A stretch of DNA of 64,000 bases, from positions 62,001-126,000 of the forward strand of contig JACOSO010000086.1 in NCBI GenBank assembly GCA_016178785.1, written 5' to 3'. The DNA is from Bacteroidota bacterium. Lineage in GTDB: Bacteria; Bacteroidota; Bacteroidia; Cytophagales; Cyclobacteriaceae. The notes beneath the pieces are model-generated. The model did no database searches and was not told the DNA's origin. It saw nothing but the letters and a program-made list of their open reading frames with translations. Each line of letters begins with the position of its first letter. Positions within the stretch are counted from its first letter, which is position 1. Positions 3,550 to 41,235 of the stretch are shown in pieces. The translations under genes and the position numbers were made by a program.

Positions 3550-4029
3550 CTAATCTTTCATAGAAAGTACCACCGCCTTTTTGTGAAGTCTAATACCGAG
3601 TGCCTTATAAAACTCCAGTGATCCATCCGGTCGCTCTTTCATTACCGGTTTAGTGTAAAGAAGCGAGTCGTTTCCCATTTTTTGCAGGTTGTCGCCTAGA
3701 TCAACTGACCCTGTTCCTGAAGTGTACGCTTCAATAATCTTTCGCTCAACGGCACGCAGTTCTGAAGTGCTTGGCTGCATGAAAAGAATTTGAACAGCAT
3801 AAACTTTTTCTAGCGAATCGATAAACTTTCGCTCATTACTTTTATTATCCTCAATGATTTTAGTGATTTTGCGAGCGTAAACAAAGGCCGCCTCGGTAAG
3901 TTCAGCATCTGAGACTTTTTTTAATGATTTAGATTCCATGTTTTCGCGCATTTTTTTTCGCTGCTCGCTTGAAAGCGAACCTCCGCACGAGAAAAGAACC
4001 AAAGTTAAAACGACAAAAATAAATTTCAT
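3550..4029 (-). CDS. Putative lipoprotein, unknown function
   Basis: A roughly 159-residue protein that starts with a lipoprotein signal, MKFIFVVLTLVLFSCGG, with the lipobox cysteine in LFSC. The ATG at 4029 is chosen because it puts this signal at the N-terminus; the frame is open further upstream but would bury it. The mature part is helical and charged, and ends with a conserved-looking region (TKPVMKERPDGSLEFYKALGIRLHKKAVVLSM) that loosely recalls the end of DUF3365-type proteins but without a haem CXXCH. It is the last gene of the MoxR/DUF58 operon, 29 bp after the preceding coding region. Function not assignable. Confidence 0.7.
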   Translation of the reverse strand: MKFIFVVLTLVLFSCGGSLSSEQRKKMRENMESKSLKKVSDAELTEAAFVYARKITKIIEDNKSNERKFIDSLEKVYAVQILFMQPSTSELRAVERKIIEAYTSGTGSVDLGDNLQKMGNDSLLYTKPVMKERPDGSLEFYKALGIRLHKKAVVLSMKD

Positions 4030-4058
4030 GCAGTAAAAATAACTCTTTGGCAGTAGAA

Positions 4059-5801
4059 TTAAATCTTGGGCGCAAGCCATAAAAATCCTGACGCAAGAAT
4101 GAAGGTAAGGTAAAAAATCAAAGGTGAGATCTTTTCATTTTCAAACTGAGGAACTGAGCTTTGGGTTTGAAGCGCACTTTGTGCCAGTAAAGTGTTCTTC
4201 ACTTGACTGGCGATACGAAGGGACTTCCACTCGCTGGGTTCAGAAACAAAATAATTCAGTGTTGTAGAATCGTTGGCGGTGAATCGATGCCAACCCGATT
4301 TTCCCGCCCAACTTTTTGTTTTCCAATAATCATCCAGTAATACATCTTCACTTGCAGGCACTTTTATATCGTCAGAACGAATGGCGGGTTTTTCTCCCGA
4401 TGAAAGTACAGACAGTTTGAGTGACTCATTTGGGTAGTAAGGAAAGGGGTTGATCAACTTTAATTCAAATTTTTTATTCCTTTTTCGAGAAGACTTTTCA
4501 ATCAGAGGAGTCCAGATGAAGGCATAATCATTGCTGTTTCCTTCTAATTCAAGCCGATAAGTTTCTTGTAAAAACTGAAAGGCAATTTTGCCTGCACCGT
4601 AAAACCGGTAGCCCGCTAAAACCCTGTCTTTGCTTTTAATCACAGACTCTACAGAGGGTTGCTCAATCACTTTGACCGGCAATACAGAAAATGTACGCTG
4701 AATACCGGGCATACTAAGATGAACTGTATCATTTGAAATGTTTTTCCCCTTTATGAAATAAAAATCGGGTTTGATTGGAACGGAGTTTTGAAGTACAACC
4801 AACCCCAAACCATCGAAAACAGATTTCTTTAAGATAGATTTTTCGTTTTCTGTTAACTCATCAGTTGTTTTTGAATCGATTAAAAGCAAATCGAATGAAT
4901 CCAATAATTCGTGGGTGAATTGGTTTAATCTCGTTTTGGGGAAATTGATAAACTCCTCATTAAAATTGTTTTTTGATGTCTGAGTGCGAATAGCTATGGC
5001 GTGACCCTTGCCCGTAAGAAAATTTTTAAGGAAACGCATTTCGACTGAAGGGAACTTTTGAATGAATAAGATTTTTAGTGCATGCTCCTCAACAACTTCT
5101 ATCGGTAATCTTTCTGATGATTTGTTTCCAAGATGGTCTTCGTACATTAAATTGTATATGAATAGGCCCGATTGCTCGGGGCGAAATGAAAGAGTAAAAG
5201 GAGTACTCCCTTTGTTTAACCTAACAGAATCTTCTACACCCGAGGGGCCAACTAATTTGAGTTTGGTGGATCCGGATGAATTAAATGAACCTGAAATTGA
5301 ATTTTTTCGCTTGGGAAAAACTTTAGGCACTGTCAGTTCAACTATCCCAAAAGGTAAGCGACACGGAACAAATTGAAAGTTTCTTGCGCCCATCAAATCG
5401 AAAATGTAGTCAGCAACACCTTCACCAAAAATGTATTTGATACTCTTATCAGATAAACTTTGAATGGAGCCAAGGACTTCTGAATGAGGATATGATTCGG
5501 TATCAGCTAATCTAAATATTTTTAACTGTGGCTCGAGCCTTAACAAACTGTCCACTTTTGTTTTCTCGAACCCGAGAGTGAGAAGAATAGCTTCTGATTT
5601 TTTCTCTGCTTTAAATGATGGCCGGAGCAACAAAGCAAGAAGGGAAATCAAAATAAGAATTAGGGCAATGACTCTGGGAATGAAGAGCGTCTGTTTTCTT
5701 TTTAACTCCAACCATGCAAAAAAAGCAAAAGCCGAAGCGGAAACAGCAAAAATTACCCACCAGGAGAACAATGGATCAAAACTCATTCTAAAATCACTCA
5801 T
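4059..5801 (-). CDS. Membrane-anchored protein of the MoxR/BatA operon
   Basis: A 580-residue protein with two N-terminal hydrophobic segments (residues about 12-30 and 40-62) and one C-terminal segment (about 560-578). This is the topology seen for BatA-like proteins, but no von Willebrand A metal site is visible. The middle carries a predicted extracytoplasmic beta-rich region and a stretch (HALKILFIQKFPSVEMRFL, then SFDLLLIDSK) that resembles the class I glutamine-amidotransferase-like fold found in large membrane-anchored relatives. It overlaps the DUF4175 gene by 8 bp, so coupling is expected. The function is unknown; position suggests a role in the same envelope chaperone or stress complex. 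Confidence 0.7.
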   Translation of the reverse strand: MSDFRMSFDPLFSWWVIFAVSASAFAFFAWLELKRKQTLFIPRVIALILILISLLALLLRPSFKAEKKSEAILLTLGFEKTKVDSLLRLEPQLKIFRLADTESYPHSEVLGSIQSLSDKSIKYIFGEGVADYIFDLMGARNFQFVPCRLPFGIVELTVPKVFPKRKNSISGSFNSSGSTKLKLVGPSGVEDSVRLNKGSTPFTLSFRPEQSGLFIYNLMYEDHLGNKSSERLPIEVVEEHALKILFIQKFPSVEMRFLKNFLTGKGHAIAIRTQTSKNNFNEEFINFPKTRLNQFTHELLDSFDLLLIDSKTTDELTENEKSILKKSVFDGLGLVVLQNSVPIKPDFYFIKGKNISNDTVHLSMPGIQRTFSVLPVKVIEQPSVESVIKSKDRVLAGYRFYGAGKIAFQFLQETYRLELEGNSNDYAFIWTPLIEKSSRKRNKKFELKLINPFPYYPNESLKLSVLSSGEKPAIRSDDIKVPASEDVLLDDYWKTKSWAGKSGWHRFTANDSTTLNYFVSEPSEWKSLRIASQVKNTLLAQSALQTQSSVPQFENEKISPLIFYLTFILASGFLWLAPKI

Positions 5802-19276: not shown

Positions 19277-20611
19277 CTACACAGCATCCGATAAACTCGA
19301 GAAAGTAAAGTCGCGGATTTTCATTGCGGGGATATAGCCGTTAGGGTTACCTTCACTTGTTACCACGCGCTCTTGTTTCCCTAAGGTCTCCAAATTATTC
19401 AGCATGATAATCGGGCTTTCATTGAAGCGAAAATTTTTGATCGGGTGTTTGATCTTTCCGTTTTCGATATAGAAAGTTCCATCGCGGGTAAGCCCTGTGA
19501 ACAAGAGAGTCTGCGGATCAACAGGGCGTATGTACCAAAAGCGCGTAACGAGCACGCCTTTTTTTGTGTCTTTGATCATATCTTCAATAGACGCAGTTCC
19601 ACCTTCCATGATTGCGTTACCCGCGAACGGAACTGGTGCTACATTTTTTTGCGAAGCCCAGTAGCGATCATAAAACAGATTTGAGACAACACCATTTTTT
19701 ATTAAATCCATTTTCTTTCGCCCCTGTCCATCGCCAGACCAGGGAGAGGCTGGTGCTTCATCATGCCACGGATCGGTGTAAATATTTACTCGCTCATCCA
19801 CAATTTTTTCTCCGATCTTAGTGCCGCCACCTTTTTTGGCATAAAAGCTTCTTCCTTCATCGGCTTGTCGGGCATTCATGTTTAACATCAATCGAACAAG
19901 ATCAGCAGCAGCAGAAGACTCCAGAACAACTGTATATTTTCCCGGTTCAAGAGCCTTTGCATTTCTCGACATCAGTGCTTTGTCAATGGCAATCCTCGAG
20001 GCTTCGGCCATTTTTATTTTGCTAACGTCATTATTCGTGCCTGCTGCCCAACCCGAGCCTGTGCCATCGTTGGTGCGCATGGTCACCGTGAAATTCACAT
20101 TTGTTGCTTTGTTGTAGGCGTATAACCCTTTGCTATTCATCAACGCGCTGAAGCCGCGATTGTCTTCGAGAAAGCCAGCCGCAGTAACATCTTTTTTCGA
20201 TGCAGGGTTGATACTGTCTGCCGCTACCTGTGCTCGAAAATCGGGAGTAATGTTTGCCGTGGATTCTGAAAATGTCTTCGATTCACCTCCATATGTTTGT
20301 TGTGGAAGCGGCTCCATGAATTCCGGATTTTCAGGCGCAAGCTGCGCAAGCTCTTCTGCTCGCCTCACGCATTTCTCGAGCGAAGCGTCATCGAATTCAT
20401 TGATCGTTGCTGTTCCTGATTTTTTCCCGTAATAAGAGTTCACGGCCAGGCTCACATTGCTGTCTTCGCCTGAAGTAGAGACGCTGTTTCGCGCATAGCG
20501 AATGTTGCCTCCGTCATTTCCGTTGAGCGTGGCCTGGATTCCATCTGCTTTAGAAAAACCGATCACCTTCTTGAGGATTTGCTCGGCTTCGTCTTTTGAA
20601 AGTATTGCCAT
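19277..20611 (-). CDS. TldE/PmbA family protein (copy 2)
   Basis: A 444-residue paralogue of the gene at 12359-13693, of identical length and with the same motif set (GGNIRYARNSVSTSG, KKSGTATINEFDDASLEK, EPGKYTVVLESSAAADL, LTGLTRDGTFYIENGKI, KIRDFTFSSLSDAV at the end). It has no HExxxH and no signal peptide. The C-terminal 14 residues are the same in both copies. It follows TldD copy 2 with a 95-bp palindromic spacer and ends at its own terminator. Confidence 0.93.
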   Translation of the reverse strand: MAILSKDEAEQILKKVIGFSKADGIQATLNGNDGGNIRYARNSVSTSGEDSNVSLAVNSYYGKKSGTATINEFDDASLEKCVRRAEELAQLAPENPEFMEPLPQQTYGGESKTFSESTANITPDFRAQVAADSINPASKKDVTAAGFLEDNRGFSALMNSKGLYAYNKATNVNFTVTMRTNDGTGSGWAAGTNNDVSKIKMAEASRIAIDKALMSRNAKALEPGKYTVVLESSAAADLVRLMLNMNARQADEGRSFYAKKGGGTKIGEKIVDERVNIYTDPWHDEAPASPWSGDGQGRKKMDLIKNGVVSNLFYDRYWASQKNVAPVPFAGNAIMEGGTASIEDMIKDTKKGVLVTRFWYIRPVDPQTLLFTGLTRDGTFYIENGKIKHPIKNFRFNESPIIMLNNLETLGKQERVVTSEGNPNGYIPAMKIRDFTFSSLSDAV

Positions 20612-20706
20612 ATTTGTTCGTTAATGGTTAATCGTTATTTGTTATTCGTGAGTATTGATTAATCGTTTCCGCCTATTAGCTATTAACGGATAACGATTAA
20701 CGTTTT
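20612..20706. repeat. Palindromic spacer, GTTAATCGTTATCC family (copy 1)
   Basis: The arm GTTAATCGTTATTTGTTA (20627-20644) faces 20684-20701, whose reverse complement is GTTAATCGTTATCCGTTA (16 of 18 match), with a further AATCG word between them. On the coding strand it begins right after the TAG stop of TldD copy 2 and ends just before the PmbA ATG. The 18-base right arm is identical to that of the copy at 22348-22427. Confidence 0.7.
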
Positions 20707-22347
20707 CTATATTGATCTTCCTGTGTTGATGACATTGATTCCATTGAATCGTGCCGTTGCTGATCCGTGTGATACCGCATTTGATTGGCCGGGTTGTCCT
20801 TTGCCATCATTGAACGCACCACCAAGTCGGTAGTCACGCTCGTCACAGATTTGTGTGCACGAATTCCAGAACTCCTGTGTGTTGGCCTGGTACGCCACAT
20901 CCTTCAACATGCCCTCTATTTTTCCGTTTTTGATTTCGAAGAAAAGCACACCTCCAAACTGAAAATTGTAACGCTGCTGATCTATTGAGAATGAACCGTC
21001 TTTAACAATGTAAATTCCTTTCTCAACCCCAGCCACCATTTGATCGGGAGTAAGCTGTTCTTTACCAGGCTGCAGAGACACATTTGCCATACGCTGGAAC
21101 TGCACATCGGCCCAACTCTGGGAATAGCAGCAACCATGTGATTCTTTTTGCCCGATGATATTCACTTGATCACGAATGGCCTGATAGTTTACCAAAATTC
21201 CATCTTTAACTAAATCCCATTTCTTACACTTCACTCCTTCATCGTCATAACCAACTGCCCCGAGCGAACCAACTTGTGTTTTATCGGCTATCACGTTTAC
21301 GATCTTGCTTCCAAAATTGAATTTCTTCGTTTGCCATTTATCGAGTGTGAGGAAGCTTGTCCCGGCATAGTTTGCTTCGTACCCAAGTACACGATCGAGT
21401 TCGGTTGGGTGACCAACTGATTCATGAATGGTGAGCCACAAATGTGAAGGCTCAAGTACCAAATCATATTTACCAGGCTCAACGGATTTTGCTGCAATCA
21501 TTTGCTTCACTTGTTCTGCCGCCATCGTTGCGTCTTCAATGATGTCGTAAGATTTGTTGTACAAAGTAATTCCCCCCGGGCCTTTGACTTTATCTTCGGC
21601 CTTACCGTCAAGGTATTCATAACCCATTCCTACTGGTGAACTAAACGCAGGCCTGCTTTTGAACTGACCTGAAGCGCGGTCAACCGCGTTAACATTAAAG
21701 CCAGGTAATATGCGGTGGATGTCCTGATCAATGTATGAGCCTTCAGACGAGGCAAAATATTTTTGTTCATTCACCAAAAAAATCTGGCTGTTTACAAAGC
21801 TGGCTCCCTTTTCTAAAGCTTTCGCATTCGCGGAAAGCAGAAGATCAACTTTATCTTTTATCGGAACTTCAAATCCGTTTTTTACGATCGGGGTTTTCCA
21901 GGTCACTTCTCCAAACGATGCTGTTGGGGCAAGTTTTACCGGCTCTTTTTGGAATTTGGAATTCGCTTTCGCAATGGCAACCGCTCGCTCGGCTGTCTTT
22001 TTGACTCCTTCAGGAGTTACGCTGTTGCTTGCGGCAAATCCCCACGTACCATTAACGATCACCCGAATACCAACACCGAATGATTCTGTGTTGACAATAT
22101 TCTGCACTTTCTTCTCTCGGGTAATTATGAATTGGTTGAGGTAGCGACCGATCCGTACGTCAGTGTAGGTAGCACCGAGACTTTTGGTTGTGTTGAGCGC
22201 AACATCTGCCAATTGTTTTTTCTGAGAAGGATCAAGCAGAGGATCAAGAAGCCTTGACACCTCTACCGAATTGGAAAACGATGTGAACGGAAGCATCATC
22301 GCGCCCGCGCTCATCCCCGTGAGTTGAATAAAATCTCGTCTTTTCAT
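20707..22347 (-). CDS. Tat-signal TldD-like metalloprotease (copy 2)
   Basis: A 546-residue paralogue of the TldD genes on either side. It has the twin-arginine-like start MKRRDFIQLTGMSAGAMMLPF, an intact LTIHESVGHPTELDR zinc motif, the stretch KTQVGSLGAVGYDDEGVKC, and the late cysteine in EFWNSC. The ATG at 22347 is clear. It is followed by PmbA copy 2, as TldD copy 1 is followed by PmbA copy 1, so a pair was duplicated. Confidence 0.92.
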   Translation of the reverse strand: MKRRDFIQLTGMSAGAMMLPFTSFSNSVEVSRLLDPLLDPSQKKQLADVALNTTKSLGATYTDVRIGRYLNQFIITREKKVQNIVNTESFGVGIRVIVNGTWGFAASNSVTPEGVKKTAERAVAIAKANSKFQKEPVKLAPTASFGEVTWKTPIVKNGFEVPIKDKVDLLLSANAKALEKGASFVNSQIFLVNEQKYFASSEGSYIDQDIHRILPGFNVNAVDRASGQFKSRPAFSSPVGMGYEYLDGKAEDKVKGPGGITLYNKSYDIIEDATMAAEQVKQMIAAKSVEPGKYDLVLEPSHLWLTIHESVGHPTELDRVLGYEANYAGTSFLTLDKWQTKKFNFGSKIVNVIADKTQVGSLGAVGYDDEGVKCKKWDLVKDGILVNYQAIRDQVNIIGQKESHGCCYSQSWADVQFQRMANVSLQPGKEQLTPDQMVAGVEKGIYIVKDGSFSIDQQRYNFQFGGVLFFEIKNGKIEGMLKDVAYQANTQEFWNSCTQICDERDYRLGGAFNDGKGQPGQSNAVSHGSATARFNGINVINTGRSI

Positions 22348-35104: not shown

Positions 35105-36907
35105 CTAAAAAGGATACTCGCCTTTTTCAATCGCATAGTTTGCTACTTTGCGTCTGGCATTTTTCAAGTTGTAGGGATCGATTTTAGCGAAGCGTTTCAG
35201 GCCAAGCATCATCAGACGAAGCTCATCGCCTTCAGCAAAAGCATAGACCGCTTGCTTACCTGCAGAGGCAGCTTTCTCTACAGCTGAATGCAAATAGATA
35301 AGCGCCATTTCTTTCTGAATCTCACACGCCTTCTCACCTCTCTGGCTAATCAGCTTTTCTACGCGAAGCAAAACAGACTCAGCGACATAAATTTCGATGA
35401 GCATATCAGCCAGGTTCATGAGCACTTCCTGTTCATCTGAAAGTTTCATCATGAATTTTTGAACTGCTGCGCCCGCTACTACAAGCCCCGCCTTTTTCAA
35501 ATTCGCCAATGCCTTTTTCTCTTTCACAAAAATTCCTTCTTCATCGCTTGCTCCAAAGTCAGGTATGGACATCAATTCTTTTTGCACCGCCATAGCCGGA
35601 CTCATTAAGTCAATAGAGCCTTTCATGGCACGCTTCATCAGCATGTCGATAGTAAGCAAACGGTTGATCTCGTTTGTCCCTTCAAAAATTCTGTTGATGC
35701 GCGCATCGCGATAGGCACGGTCCATAGGGCCTTCGGCCGAGAAGCCCATGCCACCATATATCTGAACGCCTTCGTCTACAGTAAAATCCAATACTTCAGA
35801 GCCATGCACTTTCAGGATGGCACATTCAATGGCAAAATCTTCCAGCGCCTTTAAACGTGCTTTAGCTGAATCCATTCCTCCGGCAACCAAAGCATGATAA
35901 GCATCATCGATGTTTTGTGAAGCACGATAGTGCGCAGATTCGCTTGCAAAAATTCTAGTTACAGCCTCGGCAATCTTGTGTTTGATCGCACCGAAATTTG
36001 ATATCGGTGTTCCAAACTGCTTGCGCTCGGTTGAATATTTGATCGCCTTTGAAATCGCCATCTTACTTCCGCCCACAGCCGCCACTCCTAATTTGATTCG
36101 GCCAATATTCAAAATGTTTACTGCGATCTTAAACCCATTCTCACGTTCGCTCAACAAATTTTCGACAGGCACTTTGCAGTCGTTGAAGAAAATCTGGCGG
36201 GTAGACGAGCCTTTGATGCCCATCTTCTTTTCTTCTTCATTCATGGTAATTCCACCGAAAGCTTTCTCAACGATGAACGCGCTCAAATTTTTGTCGTTAT
36301 CAATTTTCGCAAAGACTACATAGATGTCGGCAAAGCCGCCATTGGTGATCCACATCTTTTGTCCGGTGATCACATAGTGCTTTCCATCGGGAGTCAATAC
36401 AGCTTTGGTTTTTCCGCTGTTGGCGTCCGACCCAGAATCTGGTTCGGTTAAGCAGTAAGCAGCTTTCCATTCTCCTGTAGCCAGTTTAGGAATATATTTT
36501 TTCTTCTGAGCATCGCTACCATAGTATAAAATCGGAAGGGTGCCGATGCCGGTGTGTGCAGAAAGAGCAACCGCAACGGAGTGACCACCTCCAATCACCT
36601 CAGCTACGAGCATGGTTGTATTGAAGTCCATGCCAAAGCCCCCGAGTTCTTGCGGCACTGATGTGCCGAGCAAACCAAGTTCGCCCGCCTTGTCCAAAAT
36701 ATGTGGCATCAACTTCGGGTCTTTCATCGAATCGATTTCATCCAGCTTGGGATAAACTTCTTTCAAAAGAAAATCTTTGCATTGCTGCATGATCATCTTT
36801 TGCTCTTCATTGAATTCTTCAGGAATGAAGATGTCCTGTGCCTGAGTTTCGCGAATGAGGAACTCGCCTCCCTTGATTGCTTTTTTTGTTTCTACCGTTG
36901 TTTGCAT
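35105..36907 (-). CDS. Acyl-CoA dehydrogenase
   Basis: FAD enzyme for the first step of fatty-acid beta-oxidation. Family motifs: YCLTEPDSGSDANSGKTKAVL, MWITNGGFADIYVVFAKID, RKQFGTPISNFG and the C-terminal YGGMGFSAEGPMDRAYRDARINRIFEGTNEI with catalytic-type acidic context. At 600 residues it is longer than the usual 380; the extra 180-200 residues at the C-terminus (helical) fit the longer, VLCAD-like group. It is the last gene of the beta-oxidation operon. Confidence 0.93.
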   Translation of the reverse strand: MQTTVETKKAIKGGEFLIRETQAQDIFIPEEFNEEQKMIMQQCKDFLLKEVYPKLDEIDSMKDPKLMPHILDKAGELGLLGTSVPQELGGFGMDFNTTMLVAEVIGGGHSVAVALSAHTGIGTLPILYYGSDAQKKKYIPKLATGEWKAAYCLTEPDSGSDANSGKTKAVLTPDGKHYVITGQKMWITNGGFADIYVVFAKIDNDKNLSAFIVEKAFGGITMNEEEKKMGIKGSSTRQIFFNDCKVPVENLLSERENGFKIAVNILNIGRIKLGVAAVGGSKMAISKAIKYSTERKQFGTPISNFGAIKHKIAEAVTRIFASESAHYRASQNIDDAYHALVAGGMDSAKARLKALEDFAIECAILKVHGSEVLDFTVDEGVQIYGGMGFSAEGPMDRAYRDARINRIFEGTNEINRLLTIDMLMKRAMKGSIDLMSPAMAVQKELMSIPDFGASDEEGIFVKEKKALANLKKAGLVVAGAAVQKFMMKLSDEQEVLMNLADMLIEIYVAESVLLRVEKLISQRGEKACEIQKEMALIYLHSAVEKAASAGKQAVYAFAEGDELRLMMLGLKRFAKIDPYNLKNARRKVANYAIEKGEYPF

Positions 36908-36929
36908 ATTTCTTGATTTGGAGTGATTC

Positions 36930-37013
36930 AGTCAATAGTAGGCAGTCGGCAGGATGCAGTTGACAGTTCTAAAAAATTTCTGCCTACTGCTACCTGCCTA
37001 CTGCTGACTTTTA
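36930..37013. repeat. Palindromic spacer, GGCAG family (copy 1)
   Basis: The left arm GTCAATAGTAGGCAGTCGGCAG (36931-36952) pairs with 36987-37008 (17 of 22 matches). Four GGCAG/CTGCC words are present. On the minus strand it begins at the thiolase stop, giving TAAAAGTCAGCAGTAGGCAG, the same sequence, with a one-base gap, as that following the fadJ-type stop. Confidence 0.7.
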
Positions 37014-38186
37014 ATTTAATAGCTCATAAATCCCCGCAACTCCCTGCCCACCTCCAACACACGCTGTCACCATTCCGTACTTTTTCTTTTGCCTTCTCAA
37101 TTCATTGAAGAGTTGGACTGACAAACGAGCGCCTGAAGAACCGAGTGGATGACCTACCGCAATGGCTCCGCCATTCACATTTAATTTTTTGCGATCAATG
37201 TTTAATTCTTTGGCTACTGCCAATGACTGGGCAGCGAAAGCTTCATTCAACTCGATTAAGTCAATGTCATTCAATTTCAGGTTTGCATTTTTCAATGCCT
37301 TCGGAATCGCTGCTACAGGACCAATGCCCATAATTCTAGGATCAACACCTGCAGTAGCATAGCTCACCATTCTTGCGATTGGTTTGAGGTTTAATTGCTT
37401 TACCATTCTCTCGCTCATCACCGCTACAAAGGCAGCGCCATCAGAAGTTTGTGAAGAGTTTCCTGCTGTCACTGTTCCGCCAACAGCAAACACAGGCTTT
37501 AATTTTGATAACCCTTCGACAGTAGTATCTGAGCGAATACCTTCGTCCGTAGCGACAACAAACTCCTTGGTTTTCTTTTTCATATTCTCATCCACGTAAG
37601 TTTCTTTTACCGTGATGGGAACAATTTCATCTTTAAATTTTCCTTCTTTCCATGCTGCGGCTGCTTTCATATGCGATTCGTATGAAAACTGATCCTGCTC
37701 TTCGCGCGAAATTTTGTACTGCTTCGAAACTTCTTCAGCAGTCAAACCCATGCTGGTGTAGTACGTAGGATTATCTTTAGCAATACTATAATTCAATGCT
37801 GTCTTAAAACCCATCACCGGCACGAGCGACATTGACTCGGTGCCTCCGGCAATAATTATTTCTGCCTGGCCCGCCTGAATACGCTGACTTGCTATAGCAA
37901 TTGTTTCAACTCCTGATCCGCAGTAGCGATTCACTATCATACCCGGCACATCTGTACCGAGTGCAAGAAGGGCGATGATTCTTCCCATCTGCATACCTTG
38001 CTCAGCTTCGGGCACGGCATTACCTACGATGAGGTCATCGACCATTTTATTTTCCAATCCCGGAATTGATTTGACCAAATGTTTGATCACGTCAGCCGCC
38101 AAGTCGTCAGGGCGCGTAAATCTGAATCCTCCCTTCTTTGCTTTACCTACTCCGGTGCGAAAGCCGGCAACTATATATGCATCCAT
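37011..38186 (-). CDS. Acetyl-CoA acyltransferase (thiolase)
   Basis: Thiolase of the beta-oxidation type, cleaving 3-ketoacyl-CoA. The active-site cysteine is in MIVNRYCGSGVETIA (near residue 90), the histidine in NGGAIAVGHPLGSSGAR, and the second cysteine in GMVTACVGGGQGVAGIYE near the C-terminus. The length of 391 is normal. It lies between two GGCAG-type palindromes in the operon fadJ-type, S23, thiolase, acyl-CoA dehydrogenase. Confidence 0.95.
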   Translation of the reverse strand: MDAYIVAGFRTGVGKAKKGGFRFTRPDDLAADVIKHLVKSIPGLENKMVDDLIVGNAVPEAEQGMQMGRIIALLALGTDVPGMIVNRYCGSGVETIAIASQRIQAGQAEIIIAGGTESMSLVPVMGFKTALNYSIAKDNPTYYTSMGLTAEEVSKQYKISREEQDQFSYESHMKAAAAWKEGKFKDEIVPITVKETYVDENMKKKTKEFVVATDEGIRSDTTVEGLSKLKPVFAVGGTVTAGNSSQTSDGAAFVAVMSERMVKQLNLKPIARMVSYATAGVDPRIMGIGPVAAIPKALKNANLKLNDIDLIELNEAFAAQSLAVAKELNIDRKKLNVNGGAIAVGHPLGSSGARLSVQLFNELRRQKKKYGMVTACVGGGQGVAGIYELLN

Positions 38187-38197
38187 AAGTTGTTATT

Positions 38198-38281
38198 TTA
38201 AGTTGGCAGTAGGCAGACGGCAATTGGCAGTCTCACTACTAATTAATTTGTTTACTAAAATCTAAAGTCAGCAGTCACTTA
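38198..38281. repeat. GGCAG-family spacer (copy 2)
   Basis: AGTTGGCAGTAGGCAG (38201-38216) and a further TTGGCAG word stand in the gap between S23 and thiolase; AAAGTCAGCAGTCAC near 38264-38278 is a direct-orientation variant. The element ends at the S23 stop (TAA at 38279-38281). It is less palindromic than copies 1 and 3. Confidence 0.55.
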
Positions 38282-38689
38282 CACTTCAACTTTTATTTTT
38301 TCTTTCGGCAAAAATTTTTCTGGGTTTTCTAACATGCCGTTGAGCATTCTGCCCACCTCTTCTGCATCTTGTTCTAATTCCAAAAATTTTTCGTGCTCGA
38401 TATAAGAACTCTCAATTGAAAATTCTAGCCAAACTATAGTTTCACTGTTTTCGCCATCAGCATCAGAGATCTTATTGACAAAATATCCTTGGTATTTTCG
38501 TTTCCTATAAGCTTCGGCAATGCAAGTGCAAACAGAACGAGATGACCTTCGAATTTGATCTGTCAAAGAATATTTTTCTTCAGGCGGAAAAGCCTTTGTG
38601 ATATGGAATATTTTCATTGCCAAAGCAAATGCCTTTTGATAAACAATTAAATCTCTATATCCCTTTGACTTTGTCATACTGCCTTTCAT
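38279..38689 (-). CDS. S23-type four-helix-bundle protein
   Basis: A 136-residue protein of the S23/four-helix-bundle family: YRDLIVYQKAFALAMKIF, FPPEEKYSLTDQIRRSSRSV, CIAEAY and a final glutamate-rich helix. Family members occur in 23S rRNA intervening sequences and as free genes; some are accessory proteins of diversity-generating retroelements, but no reverse transcriptase or variable repeat is here. It sits inside a beta-oxidation operon, flanked by GGCAG palindromes on both sides. A start at 38677 (M5) is possible. Function unknown. Confidence 0.9.
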   Translation of the reverse strand: MKGSMTKSKGYRDLIVYQKAFALAMKIFHITKAFPPEEKYSLTDQIRRSSRSVCTCIAEAYRKRKYQGYFVNKISDADGENSETIVWLEFSIESSYIEHEKFLELEQDAEEVGRMLNGMLENPEKFLPKEKIKVEV

Positions 38690-38695
38690 AATTTG

Positions 38696-38768
38696 AAAAG
38701 TTGGCAGTCTGCAGAATGCAGCGGCAGCCTGATTACTGCCTACTGGAAACTGCCTACTGCTACTTTTA
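38696..38768. repeat. Palindromic spacer, GGCAG family (copy 3)
   Basis: AAAAGTTGGCAGTCTGCAG (38696-38714) pairs with the reverse complement of the right side, AAAAGTAGCAGTAGGCAG (ending 38767), matching at 15 of 19 positions with one gap. On the minus strand the fadJ-type stop runs straight into the word: TAAAAGTAGCAGTAGGCAG. Confidence 0.7.
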
Positions 38769-41165
38769 GTTTCTCAATGGTTTCCCTCCTGTCAATATTG
38801 CCTGAATCCTTTCCAATGTTTTCTTCTCCCCGGTGAGCGATAAAAATGCTTCGCGCTCGAGGTCAAGTAAATATTGTTCGCTTACTTCCTGGGGAGAAGT
38901 CAGGTCGCCTCCGCACATTACGTTAGCAATCCACTTCGCTACTTTGGCATCATGATCGGAAATATAATTTCCCATGCGCATGCCTTGCAAGCCTGCGAGG
39001 AAGAGCGCCTGACCTGTGCGACCTAATACTTTTATATTTTTTGCTTGCGGCAACATGGTGTAGCCTGCATCGGCAAGTTCTATTACTGCCTCTTTCGCAT
39101 CTGCGAGCTGACGGTCTTTGTTCATTGAAACACGATCCAGCTTTTTCAAGATTCCAAGTTCACGGGCTTCTTCAGCTGATGTTGCAACTTTTGCTGTCGC
39201 AATGGTCATGAATGCATTTTGCAGCGCATTCAATTCTACGTCACCTTCCTCCATCGCATCGCTGACGCGCTTGGTGAATTCTTTGGTGCCACCACCACCA
39301 GGGATAAGCCCCACACCTACTTCAACCAAGCCGATATAAGTTTCAGCAGCGGCCTGTGCTATGTCGGCATGCATTGTCATTTCACAGCCTCCACCCAGCG
39401 TGCGCCCTTGCGGACAAACCACCACCGGAACTGACGAATAACGAATGCGCATCACCGAATTCTGAAATGCCTTGATCATAAAATCGATCTCGTCATATTC
39501 TTGCTCGATGGCGTACATGAATACAAGACCAAGGTTAGCACCCAATGAAAAATCTGGCCCCTGGTGACCGATCACCAATCCACGATAATTTTTTTCTGCA
39601 AGGTCTATTGCCTTGTTCATTCCCTCGATCACCGCACTTCCCAGCGTATAGCTTTTGCTGTGCCACGCGAAGTCGAGCACACCATCTCCGGTGTCGTAAA
39701 TTCTGGAGTCAGCATTTTTCCAAACGATGTTTTCACTTTTGTTTTCAAGAATGATGAAGCTCTCCTTGCCGGGAATGGCTTTGTATGACTTTGTGGGTAT
39801 GTCATAATATTTTTTCTGGCCACCTTCACTTTTGTAAAATGATTTGTTGCCCGAAGCAATCATGTCATAAACCCATTGTGCGGGTTTGTAGCCGGCAGCT
39901 TCCATGAGAGGAAGACTTTTTTCGGCACCCACCGCATCCCATGTTTCGTATGGGCCGAGTTCCCAGCCAAAACCTCCACACACGGCATCATCTATTCTGA
40001 AAAGTTCATCGCTGATTTCCGGAATTCGATTACTTACATATTTAAACAGGTCGAAAAAACAATCACGATAGAAATCACCGGCCTTGTCTTTACCTCCAAG
40101 CAAAACTTTGAAGCGATCTTTCAGGTTGTCGATCGTTTTCGTGGTTTCGAGTGTAGCAAATTTGATTTTCGTCTTGGGTTTATATTCTAATGTCTTAAGA
40201 TCGAGCGTGAGGATTTCAGTTTCGCCTTTGGCGCTCTTGGATTTCTTATAAAAGCCCTGACCTGTTTTATCTCCCAGCCATTTGTTTTGATCAAGCCTGC
40301 CTACAACTTCCGGAAGTTTAAACATTTCGCGGCCCTCATCATTTACTAAGCCCGCGTATAGGTTATTGGCAACCTTCACAAGTGTGTCAAGGCCAACTAC
40401 ATCCGAAGTTCTGAATGTTGCAGACTTTGGTCTTCCGATTACTGGCCCCGTGAGTTTGTCGATCTCGTCAACGTTGAGGTCAAATTTTTTCATGGAATCG
40501 ATCACTTTCAAAAGCCCCCAAACACCTACACGATTGCCAATGAAAGCCGGAGTGTCCTTGCAGAGTACGGTTGTTTTGCCAAGGAAGAGGTCACCATAAT
40601 GCAATAAGAATTTAGTGACTTCCGGGTCGGTCTTAGGTGTCGGAATAATCTCCAGAAGTTTTAAATAACGGGGAGGATTGAAAAAGTGTGTGCCCGCAAA
40701 ATGTTTCTGAAAATCTTCACTTCTTCCTTCGGCCATCAAATGAATTGGAATTCCTGATGTGTTAGAAGTAATCAGTGTGCCCGGTGTTCTATGTTTCTCT
40801 ACTTCTTCGTAAACTTTCTTTTTGATATCGAGATTTTCAACCACAACCTCGATGATCCAATCCATGCTTTTGATTTTAGGCATATCATCCGTGAAGTTGC
40901 CAAGCTTTACCCTGGAAGCAAGCTTCTTGCTGAAGAGTGAAGCGGGGTTGGATTTCAAAGTTGCATCGAATGAGCTCTGCACGATGCGATTCTTAACAGC
41001 AGGATGATCGAGCGTCAGATTCTTTTTCTTCTCGTCATCGGTAAGATCTTTGGGGGCGATGTCAAGCAGTAAAACTTCGCAGCCGATATTTGCAAAATGG
41101 CAAGCAATGCGCGAGCCCATGATACCCGAGCCAAGGACGGCTACTTTCTTGATGGTTCTGTTCAT
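38766..41165 (-). CDS. 3-hydroxyacyl-CoA dehydrogenase / enoyl-CoA hydratase fusion
   Basis: Bifunctional beta-oxidation enzyme of 799 residues. The dehydrogenase comes first: VAVLGSGIMGSRIACHFANIG near residues 8-28 is the NAD site, and SNTSGIPIHLMAEG and HFFNPPRYLKLLEIIP follow. The hydratase half is at about 500-720, with GPDFSLGANLG and GRTLGGGCEMTMHADIAQAA (oxyanion hole) and GLVEVGVGLIPGGGGTKEF. The order, dehydrogenase then hydratase, differs from E. coli FadB/FadJ (hydratase first) and matches the version common in Bacteroidota. It follows MarR in the same operon. Confidence 0.93.
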   Translation of the reverse strand: MNRTIKKVAVLGSGIMGSRIACHFANIGCEVLLLDIAPKDLTDDEKKKNLTLDHPAVKNRIVQSSFDATLKSNPASLFSKKLASRVKLGNFTDDMPKIKSMDWIIEVVVENLDIKKKVYEEVEKHRTPGTLITSNTSGIPIHLMAEGRSEDFQKHFAGTHFFNPPRYLKLLEIIPTPKTDPEVTKFLLHYGDLFLGKTTVLCKDTPAFIGNRVGVWGLLKVIDSMKKFDLNVDEIDKLTGPVIGRPKSATFRTSDVVGLDTLVKVANNLYAGLVNDEGREMFKLPEVVGRLDQNKWLGDKTGQGFYKKSKSAKGETEILTLDLKTLEYKPKTKIKFATLETTKTIDNLKDRFKVLLGGKDKAGDFYRDCFFDLFKYVSNRIPEISDELFRIDDAVCGGFGWELGPYETWDAVGAEKSLPLMEAAGYKPAQWVYDMIASGNKSFYKSEGGQKKYYDIPTKSYKAIPGKESFIILENKSENIVWKNADSRIYDTGDGVLDFAWHSKSYTLGSAVIEGMNKAIDLAEKNYRGLVIGHQGPDFSLGANLGLVFMYAIEQEYDEIDFMIKAFQNSVMRIRYSSVPVVVCPQGRTLGGGCEMTMHADIAQAAAETYIGLVEVGVGLIPGGGGTKEFTKRVSDAMEEGDVELNALQNAFMTIATAKVATSAEEARELGILKKLDRVSMNKDRQLADAKEAVIELADAGYTMLPQAKNIKVLGRTGQALFLAGLQGMRMGNYISDHDAKVAKWIANVMCGGDLTSPQEVSEQYLLDLEREAFLSLTGEKKTLERIQAILTGGKPLRN

Positions 41166-41235
41166 AAATTAATTTTCAATTTTCCAATTCTCAATTAGCC
41201 AATTTAAAAAAATCGGCCAGTTGAATCATTGACTA
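41166..41235. repeat. Word-iterated spacer, AATTG family
   Basis: Plus-strand AATTTTCAATTTTCCAATTCTCAATTAGCCAATTT repeats a CAATT word four times (41168-41204), and TTGACTAATCAGTTAATTG-type sequence at 41229-41247 forms an imperfect complement. It reaches the MarR stop codon (41233-41235) on one side and the fadJ-type ATG on the other. Confidence 0.4.

Follow-up and report, generated by a model that had tools for sequence, protein, structure and literature searches.

The S23 gene in the beta-oxidation operon of the window (the whole stretch of 64,000 nucleotides that was analysed) stands between inverted arrays of short tandem repeats, and this S23-array unit is real and general across Bacteroidota and cyanobacterial plasmids. 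Sequence comparisons also showed that the arrays are coupled to the S23 lineage; recognition and copying of the arrays by the S23 protein would be the step behind this coupling. We consider it rather probable that the locus is a copy of a widespread mobile S23-array unit that settles at operon gene ends, in which S23 specifies and renews the arrays. To our knowledge, the function of the S23 family has remained unknown since its discovery in split 23S rRNAs, and we know of no explanation for intergenic heptamer repeats since their first descriptions in cyanobacteria. Through the lineage coupling these two questions become linked and both become testable, the own array being the predicted ligand of each S23.

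The S23 locus and its host operon

Genes were called by a simple ORF rule rather than by a gene finder. Pfam and NCBIfam models identified, on the minus strand, a beta-oxidation operon with the gene order fadJ-like, S23, thiolase, acyl-CoA dehydrogenase. The features of the locus are as follows.

35105..36907, minus strand: acyl-CoA dehydrogenase, host operon (Pfam)
36926..37010, unstranded: solo heptamer hairpin without S23, in the gap between thiolase and acyl-CoA dehydrogenase (z -6.1)
37011..38186, minus strand: thiolase, host operon (Pfam)
38187..38278, unstranded: heptamer array in the gap between S23 and thiolase, mainly one CTGCC arm (coding strand; z -1.7)
38279..38689, minus strand: S23 gene, 136 aa, predicted four-helix bundle (PF05635, TIGR02436, AlphaFold, Foldseek)
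38690..38765, unstranded: heptamer array in the gap between the fadJ-like gene and S23, a GGCAGT arm plus a CTGCC arm, whole hairpin (z -5.4)
38766..41165, minus strand: fadJ-like hydroxyacyl-CoA dehydrogenase / enoyl-CoA hydratase, host operon (Pfam)

The first-pass annotation had described GGCAG-type tracts in all three gaps of the operon, and this was confirmed. When GGCAGTNGGCAG was searched with up to 2 mismatches, 27 matches were found in the window against 8.9 ± 2.9 in shuffled sequence (27 was reached in 0 of 100 shuffles), with clusters at 36941-37005, 38205-38230 and 38703-38761. The same annotation held that the fadJ-like and thiolase genes end in the same element; both stop contexts indeed read as it had quoted them (TAAAAGTAGCAGTAGGCAG for fadJ and TAAAAGTCAGCAGTAGGCAG for thiolase). 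The array at 38690..38765 starts at the fadJ stop codon. The solo hairpin at 36926..37010 starts at the thiolase stop codon, and its family is that of the S23 flanks.

The GGCAG tracts of the window are degenerate tandem heptamers (period 7), with GGCAGTN on one arm and the complement on the other. When folded as RNA, 36926-37016 and 38690-38771 formed whole hairpins (z -6.1 and -5.4, respectively), and 0 of 200 shuffles were equally good in either case. The tract at 38196-38290, mainly one CTGCC arm, gave a z of -1.7, with 12 of 200 shuffles equally good. A known RNA family was ruled out for the tracts, the number of Rfam matches at the gathering score in the window being zero.

Other repeats were also seen in the window. 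A different 7-base repeat, AATTTTC-type and unrelated to GGCAG, lies upstream of the fadJ-like gene (41171-41204). At 20612-20706, a solo inverted heptamer array of the GTTAATCG type takes up the whole space between two genes of the minus strand, one of which ends at 20611 and the other starts at 20707. The tandem repeat at 4015-4071 has 2.8 copies of a 20-base unit ending in GGGCAGT.

The S23 protein

The window S23 matched PF05635 (E 6e-33, 113.6 bits, cut-off 33.8) and TIGR02436 (E 3e-29, 101.5 bits, cut-off 24). Its AlphaFold model (pLDDT 95) has helices at residues 14-30, 35-61, 66-92 and 98-120, and Foldseek matched the model to 2gsc and 2rld (E 1e-5, TM.78 by query). The modelled protein is a four-helix bundle as in 2gsc and 2rld, in keeping with membership of the family. 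The Avd proteins of diversity-generating retroelements (4dwl, 8ub8) were remoter, with a TM of.70-.72 by query. The likeness of S23 to Avd lies in the four-helix fold and in a match to PF22296 (bAvd) above the cut-off (46 bits, cut-off 40), and passages of PMC10053308 liken PF05635 to Avd. In contrast, the NCBIfam Avd model scored 36 bits on the window S23, far below its cut-off of 80. No reverse transcriptase was found beside the window S23, and in its own genome PF00078 matched only on contigs C53 and C14, not on the window contig C80.

The median dN/dS of S23 was.069 and the maximum.22 (43 pairs), and S23 is by these ratios a maintained protein under purifying selection. In the aligned S23 set, Q41, R44, S48, E55, R60 and E79, numbered from the second methionine, were the commonest residue in 98-100% of the proteins. 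Some alignment columns distinguish S23 proteins with octamers from those with heptamers, but descent confounds them and they were set aside. It may be noted that at one locus (L012) the S23 reading frame continues into the downstream array, giving the protein a C-terminal tail with repeated LLRT.

Heptamer and octamer arrays at other S23 genes

By profile search, S23 was present in 49 of 58 genomes, the window's own genome included. The latter has six PF05635 matches, one of which (L006) is below the cut-off. Outside the window, L003-L006 of this genome each lie between co-directional genes and each have a flanking tract of their own that is unrelated to GGCAG. L001, on a contig of 3.9 kb (G000:C14), is an S23 gene without a clear array. 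A reverse transcriptase domain is found on the same short contig (C14:3339-3845), and the two are perhaps part of a retroelement or of a stray contig.

Arrays were scored as the best 35-base lag identity in 150 bp on each side of S23. The 76 genus/order loci came from profile searches and from 40 fetched stretches, mostly the best-scoring end of a longer list; six S23 frames with short flanks were left out of the flank analysis. For the 76 distinct S23 genes, the mean lag-7 identity was.573 upstream and.539 downstream, compared to about.40 for shuffles. Lags 3-6 and 8-13 gave.37-.44, and lag 14 gave.52 and.50. A lag-7 identity of at least.6 in either flank was reached by 51 of the 76 S23 genes; among 371 other genes from the genus, the number was 18. 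For both flanks at once, the counts were 17 of 76 and 2 of 371. Eleven of the 76 were below.5 on both sides at lag 7; several of these carry octamers.

The lag-7 peak was also obtained with a phylum sample of 29 loci (157 genomes had a match, and 29 of them contributed their best-scoring locus) and with 85 loci of named genomes, a set that was built from the best 80 of 585 relatives through a 7-row alignment of one clade and leans to that clade. In the pooled non-redundant set, from which 3 identical proteins were left out, 123 of 187 S23 genes reached.6 at lag 7, 72 at lag 14, 28 at lag 8 and 18 at lag 15; the remaining lags from 4 to 13 gave at most 7 each. At 39 of the 187 loci there was neither a lag-7 array at.6 nor an inverted match of 16, and some of these carry octamers. 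Since the loci are related by descent, such counts and p values overstate independence.

The plasmid set consisted of 14 loci fetched out of 29 plasmid records with an S23 match, and all 14 were cyanobacterial. Their lag-7 means were.69 and.63, and 11 of the 14 reached.6, among them L366, which is AT-rich and doubtful. The units are sometimes perfect or nearly so (e.g., GGGAGTA, AAAGCTA). By eye, L371 and L378 look octameric.

The two flanks as a matched pair

When the upstream flank of each S23 gene was aligned to the reverse complement of its own downstream flank, the mean score was 16.3, compared to 9.5 for mismatched loci. The direct match between flanks was weak (10.7 own, 9.1 mismatched). 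Consensus units could be compared at 91 loci with arrays on both sides: they differed by a mean of 1.60 within a locus and 2.88 between loci, and the inverted orientation was better in 77, the direct one in 7, with 7 ties.

There were 69 distinct units among these 91 loci. GGCAG, which the first-pass annotation took as the mark of the S23 unit, is therefore not a general one, as the 7- or 8-base unit varies by S23 subfamily; a count of GGCAGT words near S23 genes would for this reason miss the association. Its broader proposal, that S23 and the hairpins form a unit at gene ends, is largely supported by the inverted matched flanks, the period-7 excess and the coupling to S23.

Crossed arms paired less well than own arms in 329 of 344 comparisons of loci that share a genomic place and have S23 proteins of 50-70% identity; at higher identities, own and crossed arms hardly differed. 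The former result implies that both arms change together. Such a joint change could be concerted rewriting or replacement of the whole unit, and the sequence data fit both.

Unit letters and unit length in relation to S23 descent

The similarity of flanking words was determined for pairs of S23 genes that lie beside unrelated genes. It was about 0 below 60% S23 identity, where the protein fails to predict the unit letters,.10 at 60-70% (108 pairs),.42 at 70-85% (15 pairs) and.59 above 85% (3 pairs). For all such pairs of at least 50% identity the mean was.011, above all of 5000 permutations (maximum.003). For example, S23 proteins that start with MNYFKELK have TTGTATA-type units at three kinds of place (in the gap from fadJ to thiolase, ahead of fadJ and next to an unrelated gene), and MHNLKELK proteins have TTTGAGA-type units at several places.

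Octamer arrays were found at 22 S23 loci (e.g., L032, L219, L276, L295) and heptamers at 118. The nearest S23 relative was also octameric for 15 of the 22 octamer loci (3.3 expected; maximum 12 in 5000 permutations), and for 11 of the 22 when only relatives of less than 70% identity were allowed. On the S23 tree, unit length changed 12 times against 20.7 with shuffled labels (minimum 17), and the octamer lineages cluster. It is clear from these comparisons that close S23 relatives share unit letters even beside unrelated genes and that, deeper in the tree, unit length tracks descent. The faster turnover of the letters, relative to unit length, suggests that arrays are renewed, not passively inherited. 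We infer that reading and renewal of the arrays by S23 would best explain the lineage coupling.

The beta-oxidation operon in relatives

S23 lies inside the beta-oxidation operon at 29 of the 76 genus/order loci, with L047, L052 and L061, which stand beside another thiolase with truA downstream, counted outside it. The figure was 8 of 29 for the best-scoring loci of the phylum sample, where, as in the named set, truA-type neighbours were not excluded. Thus, the earlier view that S23 has no metabolic link is not supported. Beyond the genus, S23 occupies the same operon gaps in genera such as Pedobacter, Hymenobacter, Mesonia, Raineya and Chryseobacterium.

A thiolase gene was detected in 41 of 44 genomes, and the comparison covered 30 thiolase loci. 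S23 adjoins thiolase at 20 of 25 genus loci and, in this set, at 0 of 5 loci from other families. Hence 10 of the 30 loci are without S23, and most of the gaps that hold or neighbour S23 carry arrays; an operon that always contains S23 without the repeats, which would have spoken against the unit first proposed, is not what the relatives show. An S23 gene occupies both gaps at four loci (L107, L113, L116, L117). At loci with S23 in one gap, a solo hairpin of the same heptamer family is often present in the other. For the 12 of 30 thiolase loci that qualified for this comparison (L121, with unparsable gaps, was dropped), the similarity of S23 flank and solo hairpin was.464 within the own genome and.218 for mismatched genomes (permutation p 5e-5). 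The own flank ranked first in only 4 of the 12, because relatives share heptamer families; L100 and L114 do not fit the match.

In filled operon gaps, the array starts at most about five bases from the upstream stop codon. Among the loci without S23, the gaps of L106, L119, L120, L122 and L123 are short and array-free, and L112 has kept GGCAG-like traces. At L108, the short gap after thiolase has the look of an S23 3' end together with an array, and is likely a remnant of a lost or deleted S23 unit. The S23 tree required at least 21 changes between the operon and other places, computed with L047, L052 and L061 still placed in the operon, against 57 with shuffled labels. The operon place is therefore kept within clades, and has also been reached or left many times.

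Solo arrays in S23-bearing and S23-less genomes

The GGCAG pattern had 129 matches in the window's own genome against 14 for the reversed pattern. In 0.94 Mb of this genome there were 53 period-7 arrays, compared with 17 at lag 14 and between 0 and 7 at any other lag. Seven of the 53 lie inside ORFs. The other 46 comprise 37 in tandem, 7 in divergent and 2 in convergent gaps, the background of gaps being 329 tandem, 80 divergent and 57 convergent; a preference of solo arrays for convergent gene ends was accordingly rejected.

Stretches of seven other genus genomes that were not chosen for S23 gave 1 array in 320 kb. Eight S23-less genomes gave 1 real array and one N-run artefact in 784 kb, compared to 9 arrays in 720 kb of 11 S23-bearing genomes and 49 in 873 kb of the own genome. 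One genome with 9 S23 matches (G086) had 0 arrays in 100 kb. The own genome is unusually rich in solo arrays. Outside it, the contrast between S23-bearing and S23-less genomes is supportive but weak.

Relation to known elements

For the 23S rRNA intervening sequence (IVS) of Coxiella burnetii, passages of PMC4990558 describe terminal inverted repeats, an S23 ORF and, immediately ahead of its start codon, tandem heptamers (GACAGAT) in up to three copies. They term the IVS a selfish element, report that RNase III cuts it and describe its S23 ORF as decaying. S23 ORFs in rRNA insertions of CPR bacteria are described in passages of PMC11270868. The window unit is like these IVSs in having an S23 ORF between inverted repeats with heptamers. 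It differs in lying between protein genes, whereas the IVS lies within the 23S rRNA gene. The units studied here further differ from the Coxiella IVS as described there in that they vary by S23, that solo hairpins are dispersed and that S23 is under purifying selection. The first-pass annotation had stated that the IVS context is absent. This holds for the rRNA itself, as the window S23 has protein-gene neighbours and the window has no Rfam match; it does not hold for the anatomy, since S23 ORF, heptamers and inverted repeats are all present. The S23-array unit is the IVS anatomy outside rRNA, which suggests that the 23S rRNA insertions are a special case of a mobile unit of S23 plus repeats.

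Tandem intergenic 7-base units, some of them inverted, are also known as heptanucleotide repeats (STRR, GGGNATC, TAACTGA) from cyanobacteria, Xanthomonas and Beggiatoaceae (PMC4692102, PMC4679880). The passages that describe those of Xanthomonas and Nostoc (PMC4692102) and of Beggiatoaceae (PMC4679880) make no mention of S23. The cyanobacterial S23 loci carry such arrays; unlike the repeats as described in these passages, the arrays here are tied to S23 and mirrored around it. Among the open-access papers listed by our literature searches, none connects free-standing S23 genes with heptamer or octamer arrays.

Mechanism and alternatives

In the proposed mechanism, a unit made of an S23 gene between two inverted short-tandem-repeat arrays, of 7 bases or, in some lineages, 8, would lodge between co-transcribed genes. 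The Avd-like four-helix bundle of S23 would recognise its own array at the DNA level, in hairpin or single-stranded form, and would promote copying and renewal of the array. In this way solo hairpins would reach other gene ends, as would, on rarer occasions, the whole unit. S23 would be expressed by read-through of the host operon, and units that disturb the operon would be lost. The helix of 23S rRNA that holds the known IVS would be a further site at which the same unit landed. Several observations count against this explanation: the few solo arrays in S23-bearing relatives (1 in 320 kb of the genus), the 39 of 187 loci with neither a lag-7 array nor an inverted match, the own flank ranking first in only 4 of 12 genomes, the misfit of L100 and L114, and the unit letters that are not predicted below 60% identity. 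The loci compared also showed no movement of a unit and no empty site with a target duplication.

The arrays may instead act at the RNA level. Their arms would pair in the operon mRNA, RNase III would cut the stem as in the 23S rRNA IVS, S23 would bind the hairpins and tune decay or translation of the operon, and selection for RNA pairing would keep the arms. Two of the three window tracts fold far better than shuffles, and the Coxiella IVS is excised by RNase III (passages of PMC4990558), as this reading would have it. S23 is moreover co-directional with both neighbours at 68 of 75 loci, against a background of 200 of 389 (p 3e-13, inflated by kinship), and so strong a co-direction means that read-through expression or selection against antisense copies matters. 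However, 2 of the 14 cyanobacterial units (L365, L366) are antisense to both neighbours, which are ribonucleotide reductase genes in the one case and transporter genes in the other, and the unit letters vary among S23 genes. In RNA stems kept by selection, G-U mismatches should be in excess, yet the arm mismatches of 127 loci were 156 G-U and 151 A-C (12 and 11 in solo gaps). The equality of the two argues against RNA-pairing selection as the main force and favours a DNA-level process for the arrays, with RNA processing possible in a secondary role. We regard an RNA-level element as quite unlikely. Another account, which we also find unlikely, puts the arrays first: polymerase slippage would make heptamers at tolerant gene ends, where S23 would insert or persist inertly, and the cassette would be passively co-inherited. 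Solo arrays without S23 in the own genome would fit this, as would the sharing of letters by close S23 relatives only and the dominance of heptamers among long simple repeats in many bacteria (passages of PMC4679880). It accords poorly with the octamer length shared with the nearest S23 of less than 70% identity at 11 of 22 loci despite changed letters, with arms that stay matched as letters change, and with the single real array in 784 kb of S23-less genomes.

In REP/RAYT elements, short sequences in inverted orientation flank a gene, and further copies stand alone at scattered intergenic positions. The window unit resembles them in both respects, but the flanked gene is S23, not a Y1 transposase, and the arrays do not need PF01797. 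We consider it highly improbable that the hairpins are moved by a Y1 tyrosine transposase encoded at another place in the genome, with S23 as a passenger. Short hairpins are indeed dispersed between genes, and PF01797 has 5 matches in the own genome and is present in 27 of 35 genomes searched (own included). Nevertheless, G007, G015 and G018 have no PF01797 match (completeness 100, 99 and 97%, respectively), yet have 5, 3 and 9 S23 matches and carry arrays (L104, L107 and L117), so that a Y1 transposase is not needed as the driver. G047 has PF01797 and no S23, with 1 array in 100 kb. A transposase of this kind also gives no reason for the array following S23.

The mobile S23-array unit can be extended to a wider proposal, which we offer tentatively. 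S23 proteins would make the intergenic heptamers and octamers of Bacteroidota and cyanobacteria, each S23 lineage being both the ruler (unit length) and the reader (letters) and rewriting both arms together, possibly with the help of a polymerase of the host or of a reverse transcriptase, the kind of partner that Avd works with. On this view, cyanobacterial STRRs, the heptamers of Bacteroidota and the IVSs of 23S rRNA would all belong to a single class of mobile element that spreads in a way of its own.

S23 ORFs also occur among cas genes (passages of PMC3936711). On the cyanobacterial plasmids, the order cas6-S23-cas4 was found at two loci (L367, L369), both with heptamer arrays, and cas10-S23-cmr3 at one (L371). 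An S23 gene between cas genes would be explained as an intercistronic mobile unit, not as a defence gene.
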